39,355 nt of DNA from Candidatus Nealsoniibacteriota bacterium (GTDB lineage: Bacteria > Patescibacteriota > Minisyncoccia > Minisyncoccales > GWA2-38-27). The translations under genes and the position numbers were made by a program. Each line of letters opens with the position of its first letter. Position 1 is the stretch's first letter. The stretch is from assembly GCA_030616085.1 (NCBI GenBank), contig JAUWYA010000006.1, positions 1 to 39,355 on the forward strand, in the 5' to 3' direction. Shown in pieces: positions 22,939 through 35,585 of the stretch. The notes under the pieces are model-generated. The model had not been told where the DNA came from. It ran no database searches and saw only the letters and a list, made by a program, of their open reading frames with translations.

Positions 22939-25900
22939 CTACTTTCTAAAACCAGTTCCAGCAGGAATAAGTTTTCCAATTATCACATTTTCTTTCAAAC
23001 CGCGCAATTTATCTTTCTTGCCTTCTAAAGCTGCTCTGATTAAAACTCTGGATGTTTCTTGGAAAGAAGCAGCCGATAAAAAGGAATCAGTAGTCAAGGC
23101 TACCCTGGAAATTCCCAATAAAATAGTAGCTGCTTTTGCTGTTTTCTTTTTCTCTTTTTTCAGCTTAATATTTTCCTCAAGAAGCTCAGACTCCTCAATA
23201 ATCTCTCCGACTGCAAAATTACTATCTCCTGCATCTTTAATTTTTACTCGGGAAAACATCTGACGAATTATCACTTCAATATGTTTATCATGGATAACTG
23301 CTCCTTGGGAAACATAAATCCTTTGAATCTCTTTAGAAATATAGCGCTGGGTTTCTTCTTTGCCCCTGAGTTTAAACAATTCTTTTAAATCTAAACTTCC
23401 TTCGCAAAGCTGCTGTCCTTTCTTTATGTCCTGACCCTTTTCTACGAAAATTGCTGTTTTGGCAGGTATCTTATACTCAATAATATCATCAGCTTTTTTG
23501 CCATTAACTTTTGCTCTAATAGTTCTATCCGGAGTAATTTCCAAAATCTTTCCTTCATCCTTGGAAATCTCTGCTTTTCCCCCAGGTATCCTTGCTTCAA
23601 AAATCTCTTGAACCCGGGGAAGACCAAAAGTAATATCGCTTCCACCAGCCACTCCTCCAGTATGAAAAGTTCTCATTGTTAATTGAGTGCCTGGCTCTCC
23701 TATTGCTTGAGCAGCAATAATTCCTACTGCTGATCCTTTTTTTACCAATTGATTTGCGCCAAGATCCCAGCCATAACATTTCTGGCAAATTCCCCGAACT
23801 GACTTACAGCTTATTGGAGAACGAACTTTAACCTTTTCAATTCCTTGCTCTGTTATTTTCCTTACTGTTTGCCAGTCAATCATTTCACCTTTTTTAACAA
23901 TGCCTTTTATGCCTTCCAAAGCTACTCTGCCGACAATCTTAAAAGCAAAATCCTGACCTAATTCATCAGCATCTTTCTTGAATATCTCAAATCCTTCCTG
24001 GTCTTTGCAATCTTCTTCAAAAACAACTACCTCATGGGAAACATCAACCAAGCGGCGAGTCAAATAACCAGCTGTTGACGTTCGTAAAGCAGTATCAGCT
24101 GTTCCTTTTCTTGCTCCATGAGTAGAAATAAAATATTCTAAAACATCAAACCCTTCCTTAAATGAACTTTTTACCGGCAGTTCAATAATCTGGCCGGCTG
24201 GATTAATTACTAAACCTTTCATTCCTGCCATTTGAACAGGCTGAGCCCAAGACCCTCTTGCTCCTGAATCAACCATTGAAAATATTGAACCCATCTCAGG
24301 CAGTGTTTTTGGCACTAATTTCTCAATTTCAGATTTTGCTTTTGTCCAAACCTCAATTACTTTACTGCTTTTTTCTTCTTTAGAAAGCAAACCTCTTCTA
24401 AAGTGGCTGTCAATCATTTCTATTTCTTTTTCAGCCGCTTTAATGATTCCTTCTTTCTCCGGAGGAACAATTAAATCGTCCATTCCCCATGTTATTCCAG
24501 AAATTGTGGCTGATTCAAATCCTAGCTTCTTAATTTTATCTAATGTCTCTTCAATTACCTCCTGTTTATATTTTGAAATAATTCCACCAACTATTTTTTC
24601 TAATTTCTTTGAATCCATTGTATTATCAACAAAAACATAGTCATCTGGCAAGGTCTCGTTGAATAGAATCCTGCCTACGGTTGTTTCCCTAATTTCATCT
24701 TTAACTGGAACCTTTATTTTAGCTCTTAAATCAATGTCTCCGTATTCATAAGCTATAATTGCCTCCTCTGGACTAGAAAAATTCTTTCCCTCTCCTTTTG
24801 CTTCTTTTTTTATCTTAGTAATCCAATAACAACCAAGAATAATATCCTGGGTAGGAGCTATAACAGGAACTCCAGTAGCTGGCTTTAATAAATTAAGAGA
24901 AGAAAGCATGATTGTTTTTGCTTCTTCTTGAGCTTCTTTGCTTAAAGGCACATGAACCGCCATCTGGTCGCCGTCAAAGTCAGCATTAAACGCCTTGCAA
25001 GTCATAGGATGAATTTCAATTGATTCTCCTTCAATCAAAACTGGCTGAAATGCCTGTATTCCTAAACGGTGAAGAGTAGGTGCGCGATTAAGCAAAACAA
25101 GCTTATCCTTAACCACTTCCTCTAAAATTGCCCAAACCTCATCTGTTTCTTGTTCAATCAGCTTTGAAGCTCCGCGAACATTATATGCAAGCTCTTTATC
25201 TAAAATTCTTTTAATAACAAAGGGCTTGAACAGCTCCAAAGCCATTTTTTTAGGAAGACCGCACTGATGAAGTTTTAATTGAGCTCCAACTACAATCACT
25301 GATCTCCCTGAATAATCAACCCTCTTGCCTAAAAGATTCTGACGAAACCTGCCTTGTTTTCCTTTAAGCATATCAGCTAATGATTTTAGCAGCCTTCGAC
25401 CACCAGTCGTAGCAGTGGTCAAAATACCTTTCCTCATTCCATTATCAATCAACGCGTCAACTGCCTCCTGAAGCATTCTTTTCTCATTTCTAACAATTAC
25501 TTCTGGAGCTGAAATCTCTAATAAATATTTTAATCTATTGTTTCTATTAATAACTCTTCTATATAAGTCGTTTAAATCAGAAGAAGCATAACGGCCTCCA
25601 TCCAGCTGAACCATTGGCCTTAAATCAGGAGGCAAAACAGGGATAACAGTCAAAAACATCCATTCCGGCCTAATTCCTGATTTAATCAATCCCTGCAAAA
25701 ACCTCAAACGTCTTAGAATCTTTCTCCGAGATATTGCTGTTGTTTTTTCTTCTTCTTTCTTTAATTTCTGTATTTCTTTTTTAACATCAAACTTCTCAAA
25801 AATCTTTCTTAAGGTCTCAGCTCCGGTCCCAGCTTCAAAAACTTCACCGTATTTCAAAGAATAATCATAATATTCAATTTCAGAAAATACTCTTAACGGC

Positions 25901-26514
25901 TTAATCTCTGAAATTTCCTCCTTTGCCCTGCTCCTTGCTGCTTTCAATTCCTCCAAGCCGATCTTCAGCTCTTTTTTGTTTGCAACCTTGCGGGGAGTCT
26001 CTCGCTTCGCTTGATCCAGTGTTTCTTGTTTCTTGTTTCTTGTTTTAATTTTGTATTCTTTCTCAATTTCTTCCAAAACTCTTTTTTTTGCCTCTTCATT
26101 AACGCTAGTCACAATATAAGCGGCAAAATAAATTACTTTTTCCAACTGCTGCATAGGAATATCTAAAACCATTCCTATTCTTGAAGGAAGCCCTCGCAAA
26201 AACCAGATATGAGAAACAGAACAAGCTAATTTGATATGGCCCATCCTTTCTCGCCTTACTGCCGATTTTGTCACCTCAACCCCGCACCTGTCACAAATCA
26301 TTCCCTTATAGCGAATCCTTCTGTACTTGCCGCAATAGCACTCATAATCTTTTGCTGGACCAAATGTCTTCTCGCAAAACAGCCCGTCTTTTTCCGCTTT
26401 CTGCGTCCTATAATTAATGGTTTCTGGTTTAGTAACCTCGCCGTGGCTCCAATTTAAAATCTCCTCTGGCGAGGCAAGTTTTATTCTTATTGCTTCTAAA
26501 TCTGTAACCCTCAT
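22939..26514 (-). CDS. rpoC: RNA polymerase beta' subunit
   Basis: 1191 residues. Zinc ribbon CYCGKYRRIRYKGMICDRCG near the start, catalytic NADFDGDQMAVHVPL, the trigger-loop/bridge region (GARKGTADTALRTSTAGYLTRR) and the second zinc site (CKSVRGICQKCYGWD) are present. A low-complexity insert KTRNKKQETLDQAKRETPRK lies near residue 160-180, encoded by DNA with three TTGTTTC-type repeats. It overlaps rpoB by four bases, and an AAAGGAGAC site lies ten bases before its ATG. Its last nine codons have a displaced copy beyond the downstream cassette. Confidence 0.97.
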   Translation of the reverse strand: MRVTDLEAIRIKLASPEEILNWSHGEVTKPETINYRTQKAEKDGLFCEKTFGPAKDYECYCGKYRRIRYKGMICDRCGVEVTKSAVRRERMGHIKLACSVSHIWFLRGLPSRIGMVLDIPMQQLEKVIYFAAYIVTSVNEEAKKRVLEEIEKEYKIKTRNKKQETLDQAKRETPRKVANKKELKIGLEELKAARSRAKEEISEIKPLRVFSEIEYYDYSLKYGEVFEAGTGAETLRKIFEKFDVKKEIQKLKKEEEKTTAISRRKILRRLRFLQGLIKSGIRPEWMFLTVIPVLPPDLRPMVQLDGGRYASSDLNDLYRRVINRNNRLKYLLEISAPEVIVRNEKRMLQEAVDALIDNGMRKGILTTATTGGRRLLKSLADMLKGKQGRFRQNLLGKRVDYSGRSVIVVGAQLKLHQCGLPKKMALELFKPFVIKRILDKELAYNVRGASKLIEQETDEVWAILEEVVKDKLVLLNRAPTLHRLGIQAFQPVLIEGESIEIHPMTCKAFNADFDGDQMAVHVPLSKEAQEEAKTIMLSSLNLLKPATGVPVIAPTQDIILGCYWITKIKKEAKGEGKNFSSPEEAIIAYEYGDIDLRAKIKVPVKDEIRETTVGRILFNETLPDDYVFVDNTMDSKKLEKIVGGIISKYKQEVIEETLDKIKKLGFESATISGITWGMDDLIVPPEKEGIIKAAEKEIEMIDSHFRRGLLSKEEKSSKVIEVWTKAKSEIEKLVPKTLPEMGSIFSMVDSGARGSWAQPVQMAGMKGLVINPAGQIIELPVKSSFKEGFDVLEYFISTHGARKGTADTALRTSTAGYLTRRLVDVSHEVVVFEEDCKDQEGFEIFKKDADELGQDFAFKIVGRVALEGIKGIVKKGEMIDWQTVRKITEQGIEKVKVRSPISCKSVRGICQKCYGWDLGANQLVKKGSAVGIIAAQAIGEPGTQLTMRTFHTGGVAGGSDITFGLPRVQEIFEARIPGGKAEISKDEGKILEITPDRTIRAKVNGKKADDIIEYKIPAKTAIFVEKGQDIKKGQQLCEGSLDLKELFKLRGKEETQRYISKEIQRIYVSQGAVIHDKHIEVIIRQMFSRVKIKDAGDSNFAVGEIIEESELLEENIKLKKEKKKTAKAATILLGISRVALTTDSFLSAASFQETSRVLIRAALEGKKDKLRGLKENVIIGKLIPAGTGFRK

Positions 26515-29500
26515 GATTTTTTGTCTCCTTTGGATTTCTCTTTAATCTCAACGCTTAATCCTAAAGATTTAAGCTCATTCACGAGCAAATTAAACGACGC
26601 TGGTATGTTTGGAGATTTAATCTTTTCGCCTTTCAAAATCGCTTCATAGGTTGCTGCCCTTCCTAAAACATCATCTGACTTTATAGTCAGCATTTCCTGC
26701 AAAATATTAGCAGCTCCATATCCTTCTAAAGCCCACACTTCCATTTCCCCAAATCTCTGGCCTCCAAACTGGGCTTTACCGCCCAAAGGCTGCTGGGTAA
26801 TCAGAGAATAAGGCCCAATTGAACGCATATGAATCTTATCTTCAACCATATGAATAAGCTTCATCATATATATATAGCCAACTGTAATTTTTTCTGGGAA
26901 TGGAAATCCGGTTCTTCCGTCATATAAAGTAAGTTTTCCATCTTCGGAAAAACCAGCATTTTTCAATTCATTCTTAATATCTGTTTCCGTGGCTCCTGCC
27001 ATAGCAGGCGATACTGCCACATAATTTAACTTTTGGGCAGCCAGGCCGAGATGAGTTTCTAATATCTGGCCAAGATTCATTCTTGAAGCAACACCCAAAG
27101 GATTAAGAATAATATCCACTGGTGTTCCATCTTCTAAAAATGGCATCTCTTCTTCAGGCACAACCTTAGAAATTACTCCTTTGTTTCCATGACGGCCAGC
27201 TAACTTATCTCCTGCTTGAATCTTTCTAACCACTGCTATCTTAACCTCAACTTTCTTAAGAACTCCTGGCTCCAACTTATGTCCTTCTTCTCTGGAGAAA
27301 ACTTTTACTCCAACCACTCTTCCTCTTCTTCCATGCTGCATAAGCAAAGAGCTATCTTTAACATCTCTTGCCTTTTCTCCAAAGATTGCCCGCAAGAGCC
27401 GCTCTTCAGCAGTCAAGCCAGCTTCCCCTTTCGGTGAAATCTTGCCAACTAAAATATCATTAGGCCCAACTTCAGCCCCTATTCTAATAATTCCCTCCTC
27501 ATCTAAGTCCTTTAATTTCTCTTCAGAAACATTAGGAATGTCGCAGGTAGTAATTTCTGGACCTAATTTTGTCTCTCTGACATCGCAGGTGAATTTCTCA
27601 ATATGGATTGAACTATAGAAATCATCTTTAACCAATCTCTCCGATATTATAATTGCGTCTTCAAAATTAGCTCCTTGCCAGGAAATAAAAGCAACTAAAA
27701 CATTCTGGCCCAAAGCCAGCCTTCCTTGAGAAATTGCTCCGCCATCTGCCAAAACATCTCCTTTCTTAACTTTTTGCCCTTTTGCAACAACTGGTCTTTG
27801 ATGAAAACAAGTATATTGGTTGGTTCTGACAAAGGTCTTTAAATTGTAGGTCTTTTTCCCAACTACAATATGCCCGGCATCTACCTCTATGACTCTGCCG
27901 TCCTCTTCAGCAATTACTTCCTGTCCTGAATCCCGAGCCACTCTCTCCTCCACGCCCGAGCAGACTAAAGGCACCTCTGGTCTTATCAAAGGCACTGATT
28001 GCCGCTGCATATTTGAACCCATTAGGGCTCGGTTAGCATCATCATTTTGCAAAAATGGAATAAGAGAAGTCCCGATAGAAAAGCACTGTTCAGTAGAAAC
28101 ATCAATAAAGTCAATCTTGTCTCTGTCAATCAAGCCTGGCTCTCCCTTTATTCTGGCCTCAACTTTCTTAGGAACAATCCTGTTTTTAGCGTCAATAGCA
28201 ACACCGCAATGAGCAATATTATGCCTTTCTTCTTCAAAAGCGTTAAGATACTGAACTTTAGATGTAACTTTTCCTTTGTCTACTTTAAAGTAAGGCGTCT
28301 CAATAAACCCGTATGGATTAACTTTAGCATAAGTGGCTAAGTGATTAACTAATCCAATATTAGGGCCTTCTGGCGTTTGAATTGGACAAACTCTTCCATA
28401 ATGAGAAGGCTGAACGTCTCTTACTTCAAATCCCGCTCTTTCTCTGGTTAAACCTCCTGGGCCAGTGGCTGACAATCTTCTCTTATGCTCTAATTCAGCC
28501 AAAGGATTTTCATTGTCCATAAACTGACACAGCTGAGAAGAAGTAAAGAATTCTTTTACAACTCCCATAACCGGCCTGGGATTAACTATTTGGGCCGGGG
28601 TTAAATCATGAACATCTAAAGTGGACATCCTGTCTTTGACAATCCTTTCCATCCTCATTAAACCTACTCTAACTCTGTTCTGAAGAAGTTCAGCAACAGT
28701 CCTTACTCTTCTATTCCCTAAATGATCAATTTCATCTGCTTTTGCCTCAGGATCACTATTCAACCTAATAATCTCTTTAACAACCTCTATTAAATCTTCT
28801 GGCTTCAAAACCCTGTCTTCTGGCTTAATCTCTTTTGGCTTGCCTGGTTTCAACGCTGGCAAGCGCTGATACATTCTCCATCTTCCAACTTTGGATAAAT
28901 CATATCTTTCAAAGTTAAAGAACACGCTCTCAATCAATTCTCTAGCTGTATCAGGAGTTACCAAGTCACCTGGCCTTAAACGTCTGTAAATTTCCACTAA
29001 AGCTTCTTCCTGGTTTTGTGCTGCATCTTTCTTTAAGGTTTCTTCAATGAAATCACCAAACATACTTTTCATCTGCTTGTTATCTAATCCGCAAAGCGCT
29101 CTTAATAAAGTGGTTGCAGCCACTTTTCTCTTTCTATCAATCTTTACTCCAATAAAGTTGCCGGCATCAGTTTCAAATTCAAGCCAAGCTCCTCGGTTAG
29201 GAATAATTTTAGCGCCAAAGCGTTTTCTTCCTCTGGATGTTTGGCTATTGAAAAAAGCTCCTGGAGAACGAATAAGCTGGGCAATAGCCACTCTTTCAAT
29301 TCCATTAACAACAAAAGTTCCCCTTTCAGTCATCAAGGGGAAATCAGTTAAGAAAACTTCCTGTTCTCTGCTCTTTTTGGTTTTAAGATTAACTAACTTT
29401 GCTTTAACTCTTAAAGATGCTTCAAAAGAATCATTATTTTCCTTTGCCTCCAAATCCGTTTTATACTTTGGCTTATCCAATTTATAGTCTAAAAACCAGA

Positions 29501-29660
29501 TCTCTAGTTCTTTGCCTGTATGATCTCTGATAGGGAAAATCTCAGAAAACAGTTCTTTTAATCCCTCCTGCCAAAACCACTGCCAGCTCTCTTTCTGAAG
29601 ATTCAGCAAGTAGGGCAGGCTTAAAGAAACTTTTGACTTAGAGAAGTTCTTAGTTTTCAT
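26511..29660 (-). CDS. rpoB: RNA polymerase beta subunit
   Basis: 1049 residues. [19 protein letters not shown], the rifampicin region ([20 protein letters not shown]), [17 protein letters not shown], the [10 protein letters not shown] segment, [15 protein letters not shown] and the C-terminal [20 protein letters not shown] clamp are clear. In E. coli numbering Asp516, His526 and Ser531 are kept, while positions 512 and 533 are Cys and Thr. The start has no Shine-Dalgarno: a terminator-like hairpin and T-run touch the ATG. Transcription comes from 30072-30100 through a structured leader of about 400 bases. Confidence 0.97.
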
Positions 29661-29694
29661 GAAAAAAACAAAAGGACTCTAAAAGTTTTAGAGT
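29661..29694 (-). promoter_or_regulatory. Terminator-like hairpin (attenuator candidate) directly before rpoB
   Basis: On the minus strand ACTCTAA-AACTT-TTAGAGT (29676-29694) is followed by CCTTTTGTTTTTTTC and then the ATG. The hairpin plus T-run is a standard intrinsic terminator shape placed inside the rpoBC leader, so some control of read-through is expected. Confidence 0.65.
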
Positions 29695-29739
29695 AAAATT
29701 ATGCTTGATTACTTAAAAAGAATAAAGAAACAAAATTAA

Positions 29740-30006
29740 GTACCCTCTCTTCAAATACAATACTGTATTGGAAGCTCTTAATGAAGATGAACTCAAGGCG
29801 CGACAACGAAAGGTACTTTTAAGTACATTGAGGAGGAGCAACGAAGAGATCGCTTCATTAAGAGCTTCTCTTTAGAGCCAGAGTATTTATTCTTCTGGCG
29901 TTGTTGCTCGTCGCTTATGTATCACAAGGACACACTTCGCTCCTCGCGCCTAGCCAGAAGAATAAATCTTTCTGGCCAATGCAGTGTTGTATTTGAAGAG
30001 CGGGTA
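29740..30006 (-). ncRNA. Multibranched structured element in the rpoBC leader
   Basis: The ends form a 32-base stem: GTACCC...ACTGTATTGG (29740-29771) against CCAATGCAGTG...GGGTAC (29975-30006) with three non-identical positions. Inside, GAAGCTCTTAATGAAG (29771-29786) pairs perfectly with 29853-29868, and ATTTATTCTTCTGGC (29885-29899) with GCCAGAAGAATAAAT (29953-29967). Smaller helices sit inside each arm. The result is a three-way junction of 267 bases. It lies between a strong minus-strand promoter and the rpoB attenuator-like hairpin, so I read it as a leader RNA. Two pairs are G-U only if the plus strand is the RNA, which argues the other way. Confidence 0.6.
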
Positions 30007-30071
30007 CAGTAAAAGAGATATTCCAAAATTAAAATACCTCTGAATTAATATTCAAATATTCACTAATTTAA

Positions 30072-30100
30072 ATTCTAATCTTTTTTGAAAAACTTGTCAA
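30072..30100 (-). promoter_or_regulatory. rpoBC promoter
   Basis: Minus strand: TTGACA (30095-30100), 17 bases, TAGAAT (30072-30077). Predicted leader to rpoB about 405 bases. The -35 overlaps the near arm of the inverted repeat at 30096-30180. Confidence 0.8.
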
Positions 30101-30180
30101 CCCCGTAGAAGAATTTCGGAAGATTTTTTCAAAGAAAAATCAAATTTATGAAATAATCCGAAATTTCTCTACAGGGTCAA
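30096..30180. repeat. Long imperfect inverted repeat between the ligase/TPR gene and the rpoBC promoter
   Basis: CCCCGTAGAAGAATTTCGGA (30101-30120) and TCCGAAATTTCTCTACAGGG (30157-30175 region) pair with small bulges. An inner GATTTTTTC/GAAAAATC hairpin lies between. On minus GTTTTTC follows, so it may terminate the upstream gene while carrying the -35 of rpoBC. Confidence 0.65.
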
Positions 30181-30185
30181 TAGCT

Positions 30186-33177: not shown

Positions 33178-33202
33178 TTAGGATAGGCCAGGCCTATCCT
33201 AA
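33178..33202. repeat. GGCC palindrome at the comM/yraN junction
   Basis: Perfect 12-base arms around a central A (33190). It contains comM's last codons and TAG stop and reaches the base before yraN's ATG. The 17-base core GATAGGCCAGGCCTATC recurs inside comF at 35830-35846. Confidence 0.85.
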
Positions 33203-34738
33203 CTCATAATTCTCTCTTTTGACTCTATATTGTAAAGCTTCTGCCATATGATTAACATTTATATTTTCTGCGGCTTCTAAATCAGCGATAGTCCGGGCAA
33301 CTTTTATCATTTTAAAATAAGAACGGGCTGAAAGATGAAAATTCATTACTGCTTGATTAAGAATTTGTTTTACTTCCTTTGAAAGAAAACAATATTTTTT
33401 AACATGTTCATTTTTCATTTCTGCATTTGTATAAATCTTATCGTTTAAAAATCTTTTTCTTTGCACTTCTCTTGCTTTTATTATTCTTTCTCTTATTCTA
33501 TTTGATGATTCTAAAAATTCTCGTGATTTTTGATCACTTGAAAGGTCTCTAACATCCACTACTGGAACTTCTACATGAAGATCAATACGATCTAAAATTG
33601 GACCTGAAATTCTTTTTCTATATCTTTTAATTTCTCTTTGAGTACAAATACAAGCCTTTTTAGGGTGATACAAATAACCACAGGGGCAGGGATTAGCTGA
33701 AGCAACCAATATAAATCTTGAAGGATATTTAACTCTTGCTTGGCTTCTGGAAATCGTCAGATGTCCATCTTCCATTGGCTGTCTTAACGCCTCCATAACT
33801 GAACGAGGAAATTCGGTAAATTCATCTAAAAATAATACTCCGCGATGAGCTAAGCTTATTTCACCTGGTTGAGGCTTTGTTCCCCCGCCAATAAGCCCTG
33901 GCTGGGAAATCGTATGATGAGGAGACCTAAAAGGACAAACTGTAATAAGTGATCCTTCTGGCGGGATATTTCCTGAAGCAGAATAAATTTTTGTAACCTC
34001 AAGCGACTCTTCCTCCTGAAGCTTTGGCAAAATTCCCGGAAGAGCCCGGGCCAACATTGTTTTCCCAGCTCCAGGACTGCCAATCATAAAAAGATTATGC
34101 CCACCAGCAGCTGAAATTTCTGCTGCTCTTTTTGTCTGCTCTTGACCTAAAATTTCAGCCATATCAAATTCAGCTTTTTCCTCTCTATTACTATTTTCTT
34201 CTTTATGATATTGAGCTGGTCTGATTTGAATTTTTCCTAAAACATGAGCCAATAATTGATTAAGGCTCTCTACTGGATAAACATTAATGCCCTTTATTAT
34301 GGCTGCTTCATTTGCAGATGCCTTTGGCACAAATATGCTTTCAATTCCTTTTTCTTTTGCAAATAACGACAGCAATAATGCTCCTTTTGTATGACGAAGA
34401 GTCCCGTCTAAAGAAAGCTCTCCAAAAAATAAGCTCTTTTTTGGAATTTCACATTTTATAACTGAACCCAAAATACCAACAGCAATAGGTAAGTCATAAT
34501 AAGAGCCTTCTTTAGGAACATCTGCTGGAGCTAAATTTACAATAATTCTCCGAGTTGGCATTTCGATGCCTGAATTAACAATTGCTGTTTTTACTCTTTC
34601 TTTGCTTTCATCAACTGATTTGCTTGGCAAACCAACAATATCAAAAACAGGCAATCCTCTGTTTGCTATATTAACCTCTACATCCACGCCTATCGTTTCC
34701 AAACCCAAGTTTGTTGCTGATGAAACTTTAATGAACAT
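33194..34738 (-). CDS. comM: ComM/YifB Mg-chelatase-like AAA+ protein
   Basis: 514 residues from MFIKVSSATN (34738); an upstream ATG at 34756 would deepen the overlap with dprA. The N-terminal Lon-protease-like domain (VDESKERVKTAIVNSG, INLAP-type segment) is followed by an AAA+ core with Walker A IGSPGAGKTMLARALPGILP, LFLDEF Walker B and SANPCPCG. A C-terminal helical domain follows. A Cys-rich loop (CPCGYLYHPKKACIC) is typical. ComM is a hexameric helicase that extends branch migration during natural transformation. It overlaps dprA by 11 bases, forming a competence operon with dprA and comF upstream and yraN downstream. Confidence 0.94.
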   Translation of the reverse strand: MFIKVSSATNLGLETIGVDVEVNIANRGLPVFDIVGLPSKSVDESKERVKTAIVNSGIEMPTRRIIVNLAPADVPKEGSYYDLPIAVGILGSVIKCEIPKKSLFFGELSLDGTLRHTKGALLLSLFAKEKGIESIFVPKASANEAAIIKGINVYPVESLNQLLAHVLGKIQIRPAQYHKEENSNREEKAEFDMAEILGQEQTKRAAEISAAGGHNLFMIGSPGAGKTMLARALPGILPKLQEEESLEVTKIYSASGNIPPEGSLITVCPFRSPHHTISQPGLIGGGTKPQPGEISLAHRGVLFLDEFTEFPRSVMEALRQPMEDGHLTISRSQARVKYPSRFILVASANPCPCGYLYHPKKACICTQREIKRYRKRISGPILDRIDLHVEVPVVDVRDLSSDQKSREFLESSNRIRERIIKAREVQRKRFLNDKIYTNAEMKNEHVKKYCFLSKEVKQILNQAVMNFHLSARSYFKMIKVARTIADLEAAENINVNHMAEALQYRVKRENYELG

Positions 34739-35585
34739 AATATTTCCCATTCTCAATAAATATAAGGTTTTTTAATTGCATTAAAGACATTGTAGTTCCT
34801 ATTTTAGCAGATGAAATTTCTAATGATCTAGATAATACATCTATTTCCATTGGTTCTTGTTGTAATTTTTGAATGATGCGTTGTTCTAAATCATTTAATG
34901 AATTGTCAAATTCTTTTTTATTAATTATTTTTCTTTTTATATCATAATATTCCAATACATCCCCTGCGCATGTCACCACGCTTACTCCATCTTTAATTAA
35001 TTGACAAATGCCTTCTGAAAGAACACTAGTCAAGGGTCCTGGAACAGCAAAAACTTTTCTTTTATATTTCTTAGCAAGATTAGCTGTAATAAGAGAACCG
35101 CTTTTTAATCCTGCTTCAATAACCATTGTTGCTTTAGATAAACCTGCTATAATTCTATTTCTTTTCGGATAAGTCCAAAAAGCTGGAAGAGAATCTCCTT
35201 CAAATTCAGAAACAATAAGTCCATTATTTTCTAATATATCCACATATAATTTTGTTTGGTATTCTGGATGAATTCTCTCAATTCCGCAAGGCATTATTGC
35301 AATTGTCCTTGCCCCAACATCTAAAGCTGTTTTATGAGCTGTTGCATCAATTCCATACATAAACCCAGAAACAATTGTTATTCCTCTACTAGCTATTTCA
35401 GAAATTAATTTGTTAGTAATTTGCTGACCATAACTTGTCATTCTTCTTGAACCAACAACTGCCAAGCAATTTTCAAAAATTTTCTTATCCCAATTTCCCT
35501 TGTAATATAATTGCTTTGGAGGATCATTAATCTTTTTTAACAATTTCGGATATTGTGGATCATCAAATTTAATTATACCCTGCAT
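34728..35585 (-). CDS. dprA: DNA-processing protein DprA
   Basis: 285 residues. The Rossmann-like core shows VVGSRRMTSYG, IVSGFMYGIDATAHKTAL, PCGIERIHPE, YPKRNRIIAGLS and GSLITANLAKKYKRKVFAVPG. The N-terminus lacks the long SAM-like domain of some homologues, and the C-terminus carries a small winged helix (SLNDLEQRIIQKL, LSRSLEISSAKIGTTMSLMQL). DprA protects imported single strands and loads RecA. It follows comF after a 123-base A/T-rich inverted repeat and overlaps comM. Confidence 0.95.
   Translation of the reverse strand: MQGIIKFDDPQYPKLLKKINDPPKQLYYKGNWDKKIFENCLAVVGSRRMTSYGQQITNKLISEIASRGITIVSGFMYGIDATAHKTALDVGARTIAIMPCGIERIHPEYQTKLYVDILENNGLIVSEFEGDSLPAFWTYPKRNRIIAGLSKATMVIEAGLKSGSLITANLAKKYKRKVFAVPGPLTSVLSEGICQLIKDGVSVVTCAGDVLEYYDIKRKIINKKEFDNSLNDLEQRIIQKLQQEPMEIDVLSRSLEISSAKIGTTMSLMQLKNLIFIENGKYYVH

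Follow-up and report, generated by a model that had tools for sequence, protein, structure and literature searches.

The supply of RNA polymerase is a core growth control. In E. coli, rpoBC expression passes an attenuator located between rplL and rpoB, within the rplJL-rpoBC unit (Barry et al. 1980; Steward and Linn 1992, both as cited in PMC1242208), and an rpoBC leader has been predicted in cyanobacteria (cluster 245 in PMC1242208). No report on the regulation of RNA polymerase supply in Patescibacteria (CPR) was found, nor, among open-access papers, any title or abstract describing an rpoB leader in this group or the palindromic repeats described below, here termed Y-elements. The locus studied here resembles the E. 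coli attenuator and the cyanobacterial leader in having a terminator-like structure immediately upstream of rpoB, which could lower the transcription of rpoBC relative to that upstream. By contrast with E. coli, the site does not lie between rplL and rpoB, and the putative attenuator stands in a leader of its own with a near-consensus promoter, its hairpin sequence being of a CCCTAA/TTAGGG type particular to this class of bacteria.

The window, that is the whole 39,355-nt stretch analysed, corresponds to contig C17 in a Patescibacteria genome of 740 kb, and the best sequence relatives of its rpoB are labelled Nealsonbacteria or Paceibacterota. The intergenic stretch 29661-30185 is bordered by the minus-strand rpoB on one side and on the other by a gene for a TPR protein, not rplJL, in agreement with the original prediction that rpoB stands alone. 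The near-consensus promoter that had been proposed before rpoBC is borne out as well, as is the lack of a Shine-Dalgarno sequence before rpoB, but the latter is the norm in this genome, where SD-like motifs precede 18.6% of genes compared with 19.9% in shuffled sequences. The features of the locus are collected in Table 1.

Table 1. Features of the rpoBC locus, in coordinates of the window
Feature	Position	Strand	Basis or remark
rpoC	22939..26514	-	3' of rpoB; Pfam Rpb1 domains
rpoB	26511..29660	-	1049 aa; Pfam Rpb2 domains
T-rich tract CCTTTTGTTTTTTTC	29661..29675	-	directly before rpoB ATG
Attenuator-like hairpin 2, ACTCTAAAA-C-TTTTAGAGT	29676..29694	-	terminator score 18.0
Y-element, mobile strand-symmetric palindrome	29740..30007	.	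outer stem and two inverted arms; 268 nt
Y-element outer stem, other arm	29740..29771	.	inverted-repeat pairing
Y-element arm 2, inverted paralogue of arm 1	29771..29868	+	covariance model R1, 70.2 bits, opposite strand (arm among the model-building sequences)
Y-element arm 1, conserved tandem-GA tip (GCGCGAGGAGCGAAG...GCGACGAGCAAC)	29885..29967	-	covariance model R1, 87.3 bits (arm among the model-building sequences)
Y-element outer stem, one arm (GTACCCGCTCTTC... on rpoB-sense strand)	29976..30007	.	inverted-repeat pairing; 31/31 match to the C4 remnant
First leader hairpin, AGAGGTATTTT-AATTTT-GGAATATCTCT then TTTT	30014..30041	-	same hairpin in G006 and G007
rpoB promoter, TTGACA-17-TAGAAT	30072..30100	-	11/12 consensus matches
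Member of high-copy palindrome family (CCCCGTTAGA...TCTAACGGGG)	30100..30177	.	separate family; touches the -35 box

Two hairpins lie between the promoter and rpoB. The first, which had been overlooked, is common to the close rpoB relatives G006 (locus L156) and G007 (locus L157), reading AGAGRTATTTT...ATATCTCT followed by TTTT in these two and the window, and a comparable one is present in G005. Hairpin 2 ends 15 nt before the rpoB ATG, and comparison with CCCTAAAATTTTAGGG of G006 shows a C-G to T-A exchange matched on both sides. The terminator hairpin and T-run of the original prediction are present, with the correction that the run ends one base short of the ATG. Because the hairpins are A/T-rich and the T-tract is interrupted by CC and G, termination may be weak. 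With the Y-element removed, the leader measures 143 nt, within the range of its relatives and the norm for the family. In G007, the rpoB frame lies directly behind the first hairpin, with hairpin 2 absent and with ATT aligned at the expected start in place of ATG, an arrangement that may be an assembly fault.

Conservation of the leader was assessed on 80 rpoB loci fetched from related genomes. In most of them a near-consensus promoter is followed by A/T-rich sequence and, near the ATG, by a hairpin with its T-run. A promoter with at least 10/12 matches, 60-260 nt before rpoB, is present in 69% of 131 upstream regions of relatives, compared with 4% of shuffles and 5% of antisense controls, and most often lies 90-220 nt before the ATG. 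At the order level 72% of relatives have a near-consensus promoter before rpoB, and at the class level 66%, against 5.6% for other genes of the same loci. Hairpins with a terminator score of at least 14 precede rpoB in 47% of cases on the sense strand, 14% on the antisense strand and 17% in shuffles; in an even sample of the class, a score of at least 18 is reached in 20% versus 3%. The hairpin type among relatives is CCCTAA...TTAGGG with a T-run, the consensus of the leader alignment being TTTACCCTAA..TTAGGGTnTTTTTTnTTTT, and the CCCT..AGGG motif occurs in 31 of 77 leaders where 4.6 were expected, and in 18 of 60 of the even class sample where 2.0 were expected. Promoter combined with terminator or CCCT..AGGG hairpin is found before rpoB in 54% of cases at the order level and 41% at the class level, compared with 1.4% for other genes, the control set being 78 genes of the same loci taken from simple open-reading-frame calls.

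About half of the relatives have no hairpin passing the terminator score, in part because the hairpin finder is crude: a stricter scorer overlooked obvious hairpins and was replaced, and both scorers gave sense-strand enrichment. In the genome under study itself, 16-21% of genes reach a score of at least 14 and other palindromes are abundant, so that a hairpin alone is no proof, and it is its recurrent place behind the promoter that counts. RNAalifold returned only 3 pairs on the leader alignment because loop lengths vary, and pair conservation was judged by eye. Leader ATGs are depleted (32 seen, 73 expected from shuffles), which argues against a leader peptide; no short ORF of the trp-type peptide attenuator was found, the window's leader minus the Y-element having no ATG by eye. 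The window's leader matched no known riboswitch or ribosomal leader at gathering score in Rfam 15, and the weak E-value matches were mostly to miRNA-type hairpins, far below their gathering scores. Judged by this sequence comparison, promoter and hairpin are a true rpoB leader conserved across the class, and the dedicated leader with a terminator-like hairpin that had been predicted is upheld by its conserved position. Such a class-wide leader offers a concrete, testable site for the control of rpoBC, which here stands apart from the ribosomal operon.

Within the window's leader lies the Y-element, in which the three-way junction and 32-base closing stem of the original prediction are recovered, the length being 268 nt and not 267. 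Its 32-nt outer stem arms are 91% complementary, while the inner arms (29771-29786 with 29853-29868, and 29885-29899 with 29953-29967) are both 100% complementary. The whole intergenic region folds in the rpoB sense at -177 kcal/mol (z = -11.3, 0/100 shuffles as good). As the plus strand does so just as well (-168, z = -11.8), the fold by itself names no strand. Six copies, full-length or nearly so, can be aligned as a single family with conserved tips and differing stems, and within each copy the arms are inverted paralogues on opposite strands. Eleven arms, read on the G/A-rich strand, share the core AGGCGCGA.GA..GAA - apical stem - GA.GA.GAGCAAC.AAGA, an alignment that suggests tandem G.A pairing in the tips. 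In the consensus arm fold, 17 of 25 pairs show changes on both sides, a count that overstates the number of independent events since the alignments include related arms; the changes include G-C to C-G exchanges where single pairs separate the G/A steps. Nearly every copy has a long, well-paired outer stem, but its sequence varies, and many stems hold TTCGAATCC-like words of the kind found at tRNA gene 3' ends (a comparison made by eye). In L198, L199, L205, L206, L208, L247-L250 and others, tRNA-3'-end-like words (GTTCGAATCC...) end the outer stems on both sides, facing outward. A derivation of the outer stems from the genome's own tRNA genes was considered and rejected, none being identical by eye.

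In the window's own genome, a covariance model of the Y-element arm (R1) finds seven arms at E < 1e-12 and one truncated arm. Within the order it detects the arm in 36 of the 247 genomes, and in a class-wide draw of 286 genomes it does so in 31, with many families of the class represented; typically a plus arm comes first, with a minus arm about 25 nt further on. The own genome holds three diverged full copies (contigs C20, C1 and C27) with common inner tips and differing outer stems. A stem remnant at C4:11086-11134 (L003), a 49-nt palindrome with 31/31 identity to the window's outer stem, lies directly behind a -10-like box and directly before an rpmB-like start (gene read by eye); from its sequence, it is probably what is left of a copy after loss of the core between two ATTG repeats. 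In G001, of the same genus, a full-length copy of 92% identity lies between htrA and a tRNA-Arg gene (genes read from sequence), and the orthologous htrA site of the own genome contains no Y-element. Despite a stated completeness of 96%, G001 gave no rpoB match at all, so the window's insertion site has no counterpart for comparison within the genus and the nearest empty site is that of G006, which reads TTTTGGTACTTG where the window's Y-element follows the first hairpin. The copies on C17 and C4 and that of G001 carry GTAC at each end, and G006 has GTAC at the matching position. G187 contains four copies in different places, 98-99% identical over about 230-265 bp, pointing to recent spread, and these show no obvious target duplication of the GTAC type. 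Elsewhere Y-elements adjoin unrelated genes, lying for example next to htrA, after groEL or before a radical-SAM gene; no copy was found inside a gene, and the orientable copies show no preference relative to neighbouring genes (4 sense, 5 antisense).

Taken together, these observations make it fairly probable, on sequence grounds, that the region is an rpoBC leader with its own promoter, most likely attenuating, into which the 268-nt Y-element has inserted as a mobile passenger. The conservation in position of leader and terminator-like hairpin across the class makes attenuation of a stand-alone rpoBC a sound reading. According to this proposal, transcription of rpoBC would start at a strong promoter of its own and run through a short leader that is poor in ATG and ends in an intrinsic-terminator-like hairpin directly before rpoB; a share of polymerases would stop at hairpin 2, and readthrough would set the level of rpoBC with no leader peptide involved. 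The Y-element would have entered just behind the first hairpin, leaving promoter and hairpins intact, as a passenger rather than a sensor, and its long stem in the RNA may be cut by a double-strand RNase. The original prediction had instead joined the junction and the hairpin into one regulatory RNA leader sensing polymerase or ribosome supply, for which the location of the junction between promoter and rpoB and a rpoB-sense fold far beyond chance would speak. This is extremely improbable given the equally good fold of the plus strand, the neutral orientation of the element with its arms as inverted copies on opposite strands, and its occurrence at unrelated genes together with its absence from all 80 rpoB loci of relatives, the one weak arm match among them (L054, 24.5 bits) lying away from the rpoB upstream region. 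Absence before rpoB in relatives, or scattered copies with target duplications, had been named beforehand as outcomes that would speak against a role in rpoBC control; absence and scatter were both observed, and target duplications were not clear beyond the shared GTAC. Thus the observation behind the original prediction was right and its interpretation half right: the hairpin belongs to the conserved rpoB leader, and the three-way junction does not.

Two further explanations concern the hairpin itself. It could serve as an mRNA 5' stabiliser or translation element, the hairpin and U-rich tract loading ribosomes (e.g. via S1) in genomes that do not rely on SD sequences, which would suit the T-rich tract adjoining the ATG, the enrichment of TTTTTGTTTG-type words in relatives' leaders and the absence of an SD signal in this genome. 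A general translation element would, however, sit poorly with the presence of such a hairpin in only about 4% of other genes of the same loci, with a hairpin-to-ATG distance varying from about 8 to 90 nt, and with the immediate T-run, an intrinsic-terminator signature enriched on the sense strand only, and this explanation appears unlikely. Alternatively, the leader promoter could drive a small RNA of its own that ends at the hairpin, rpoB being expressed mainly in some other way. In many species, promoter and terminator-like hairpin do delimit a transcript of about 100-190 nt, but the leader is little conserved outside promoter, hairpin and A/T-rich stretches, and the hairpin usually lies less than 40 nt from rpoB, making a separate small RNA very unlikely. 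Attenuation within the leader remains the preferred reading.

Regarding the nature of the Y-element, bacterial MITEs such as RUP and NEMIS are 70-300 bp long with terminal inverted repeats of 15-30 bp (PMC3733652). Like these, the Y-element occurs as dispersed, non-coding, intergenic copies with long terminal inverted repeats, about 230-290 bp in the copies measured. Unlike these, it combines conserved inner tips with an outer stem that varies from one subfamily to another, preserves its three-way-junction fold through paired changes, and is accompanied by neither a parent transposase (candidate examined: Y1) nor a clear target duplication. REP dimers inside 41-bp palindromes have been described in H. 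neapolitanus (PMC3733652), and the Y-element resembles such REP/BIME palindromes in consisting of two inverted hairpin units in intergenic DNA. It differs in that its arms measure about 80 nt and have tandem G/A tips, and, by inspection, it has no GTAG- or CGTC-tagged hairpin of 20-40 bp. Genomes of the class often carry Y1 transposase genes whether or not a Y-element is present, Y1_Tnp occurring in 22 of 31 Y-element-bearing genomes (71%) and in 188 of 286 overall (66%); with no association between the two, a Y1/RAYT transposase was rejected as the mobiliser.

The inverted terminal repeat of the parvovirus AAV is palindromic and folds into a stem that bears two arms. The Y-element is like it in geometry only, with tip words that recall its GAGC-like ones, and unlike it has no Rep gene or viral context. 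A viral origin was rejected: a tip word occurs in five IMG/VR contigs without Y-like context and was judged a chance match. Tentatively, and with somewhat less than even confidence, we propose that Y-elements may form a distinct class of Patescibacteria mobile DNA recognised as a folded single strand, with two inverted arms whose tips alternate Watson-Crick and tandem G.A pairs; arm and outer stems would change freely in sequence yet keep their pairing, as though movement involved copying one strand anew from the other, many outer stems being tRNA-3'-end-like. With its occurrence in many families of the class, the Y-element offers a case of structured mobile DNA, and illustrates how a mobile palindrome can sit in the leader of a core gene and pass for a riboregulator.

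Other palindrome families occur at the locus and elsewhere in the genome. The palindrome abutting the -35 box, overlooked in the original prediction, belongs to a family with about 81 paired copies in 740 kb, and copies of it also lie before rpoB in L171, L174 and L182. A further family, TGGCGGTATCGGATACCGCCA, has roughly 20 copies in the own genome (e.g. C1:47970-48022 and C29:15045-15093). In the loci L161, L171, L173 and L182 of other genomes, further palindromes have inserted behind the hairpin and ahead of the rpoB ATG, and the leader thus seems to be a repeated landing place. Elsewhere in the window, a ComM-like Mg-chelatase gene adjoins dprA (33194-35585), pairing two natural-competence genes.
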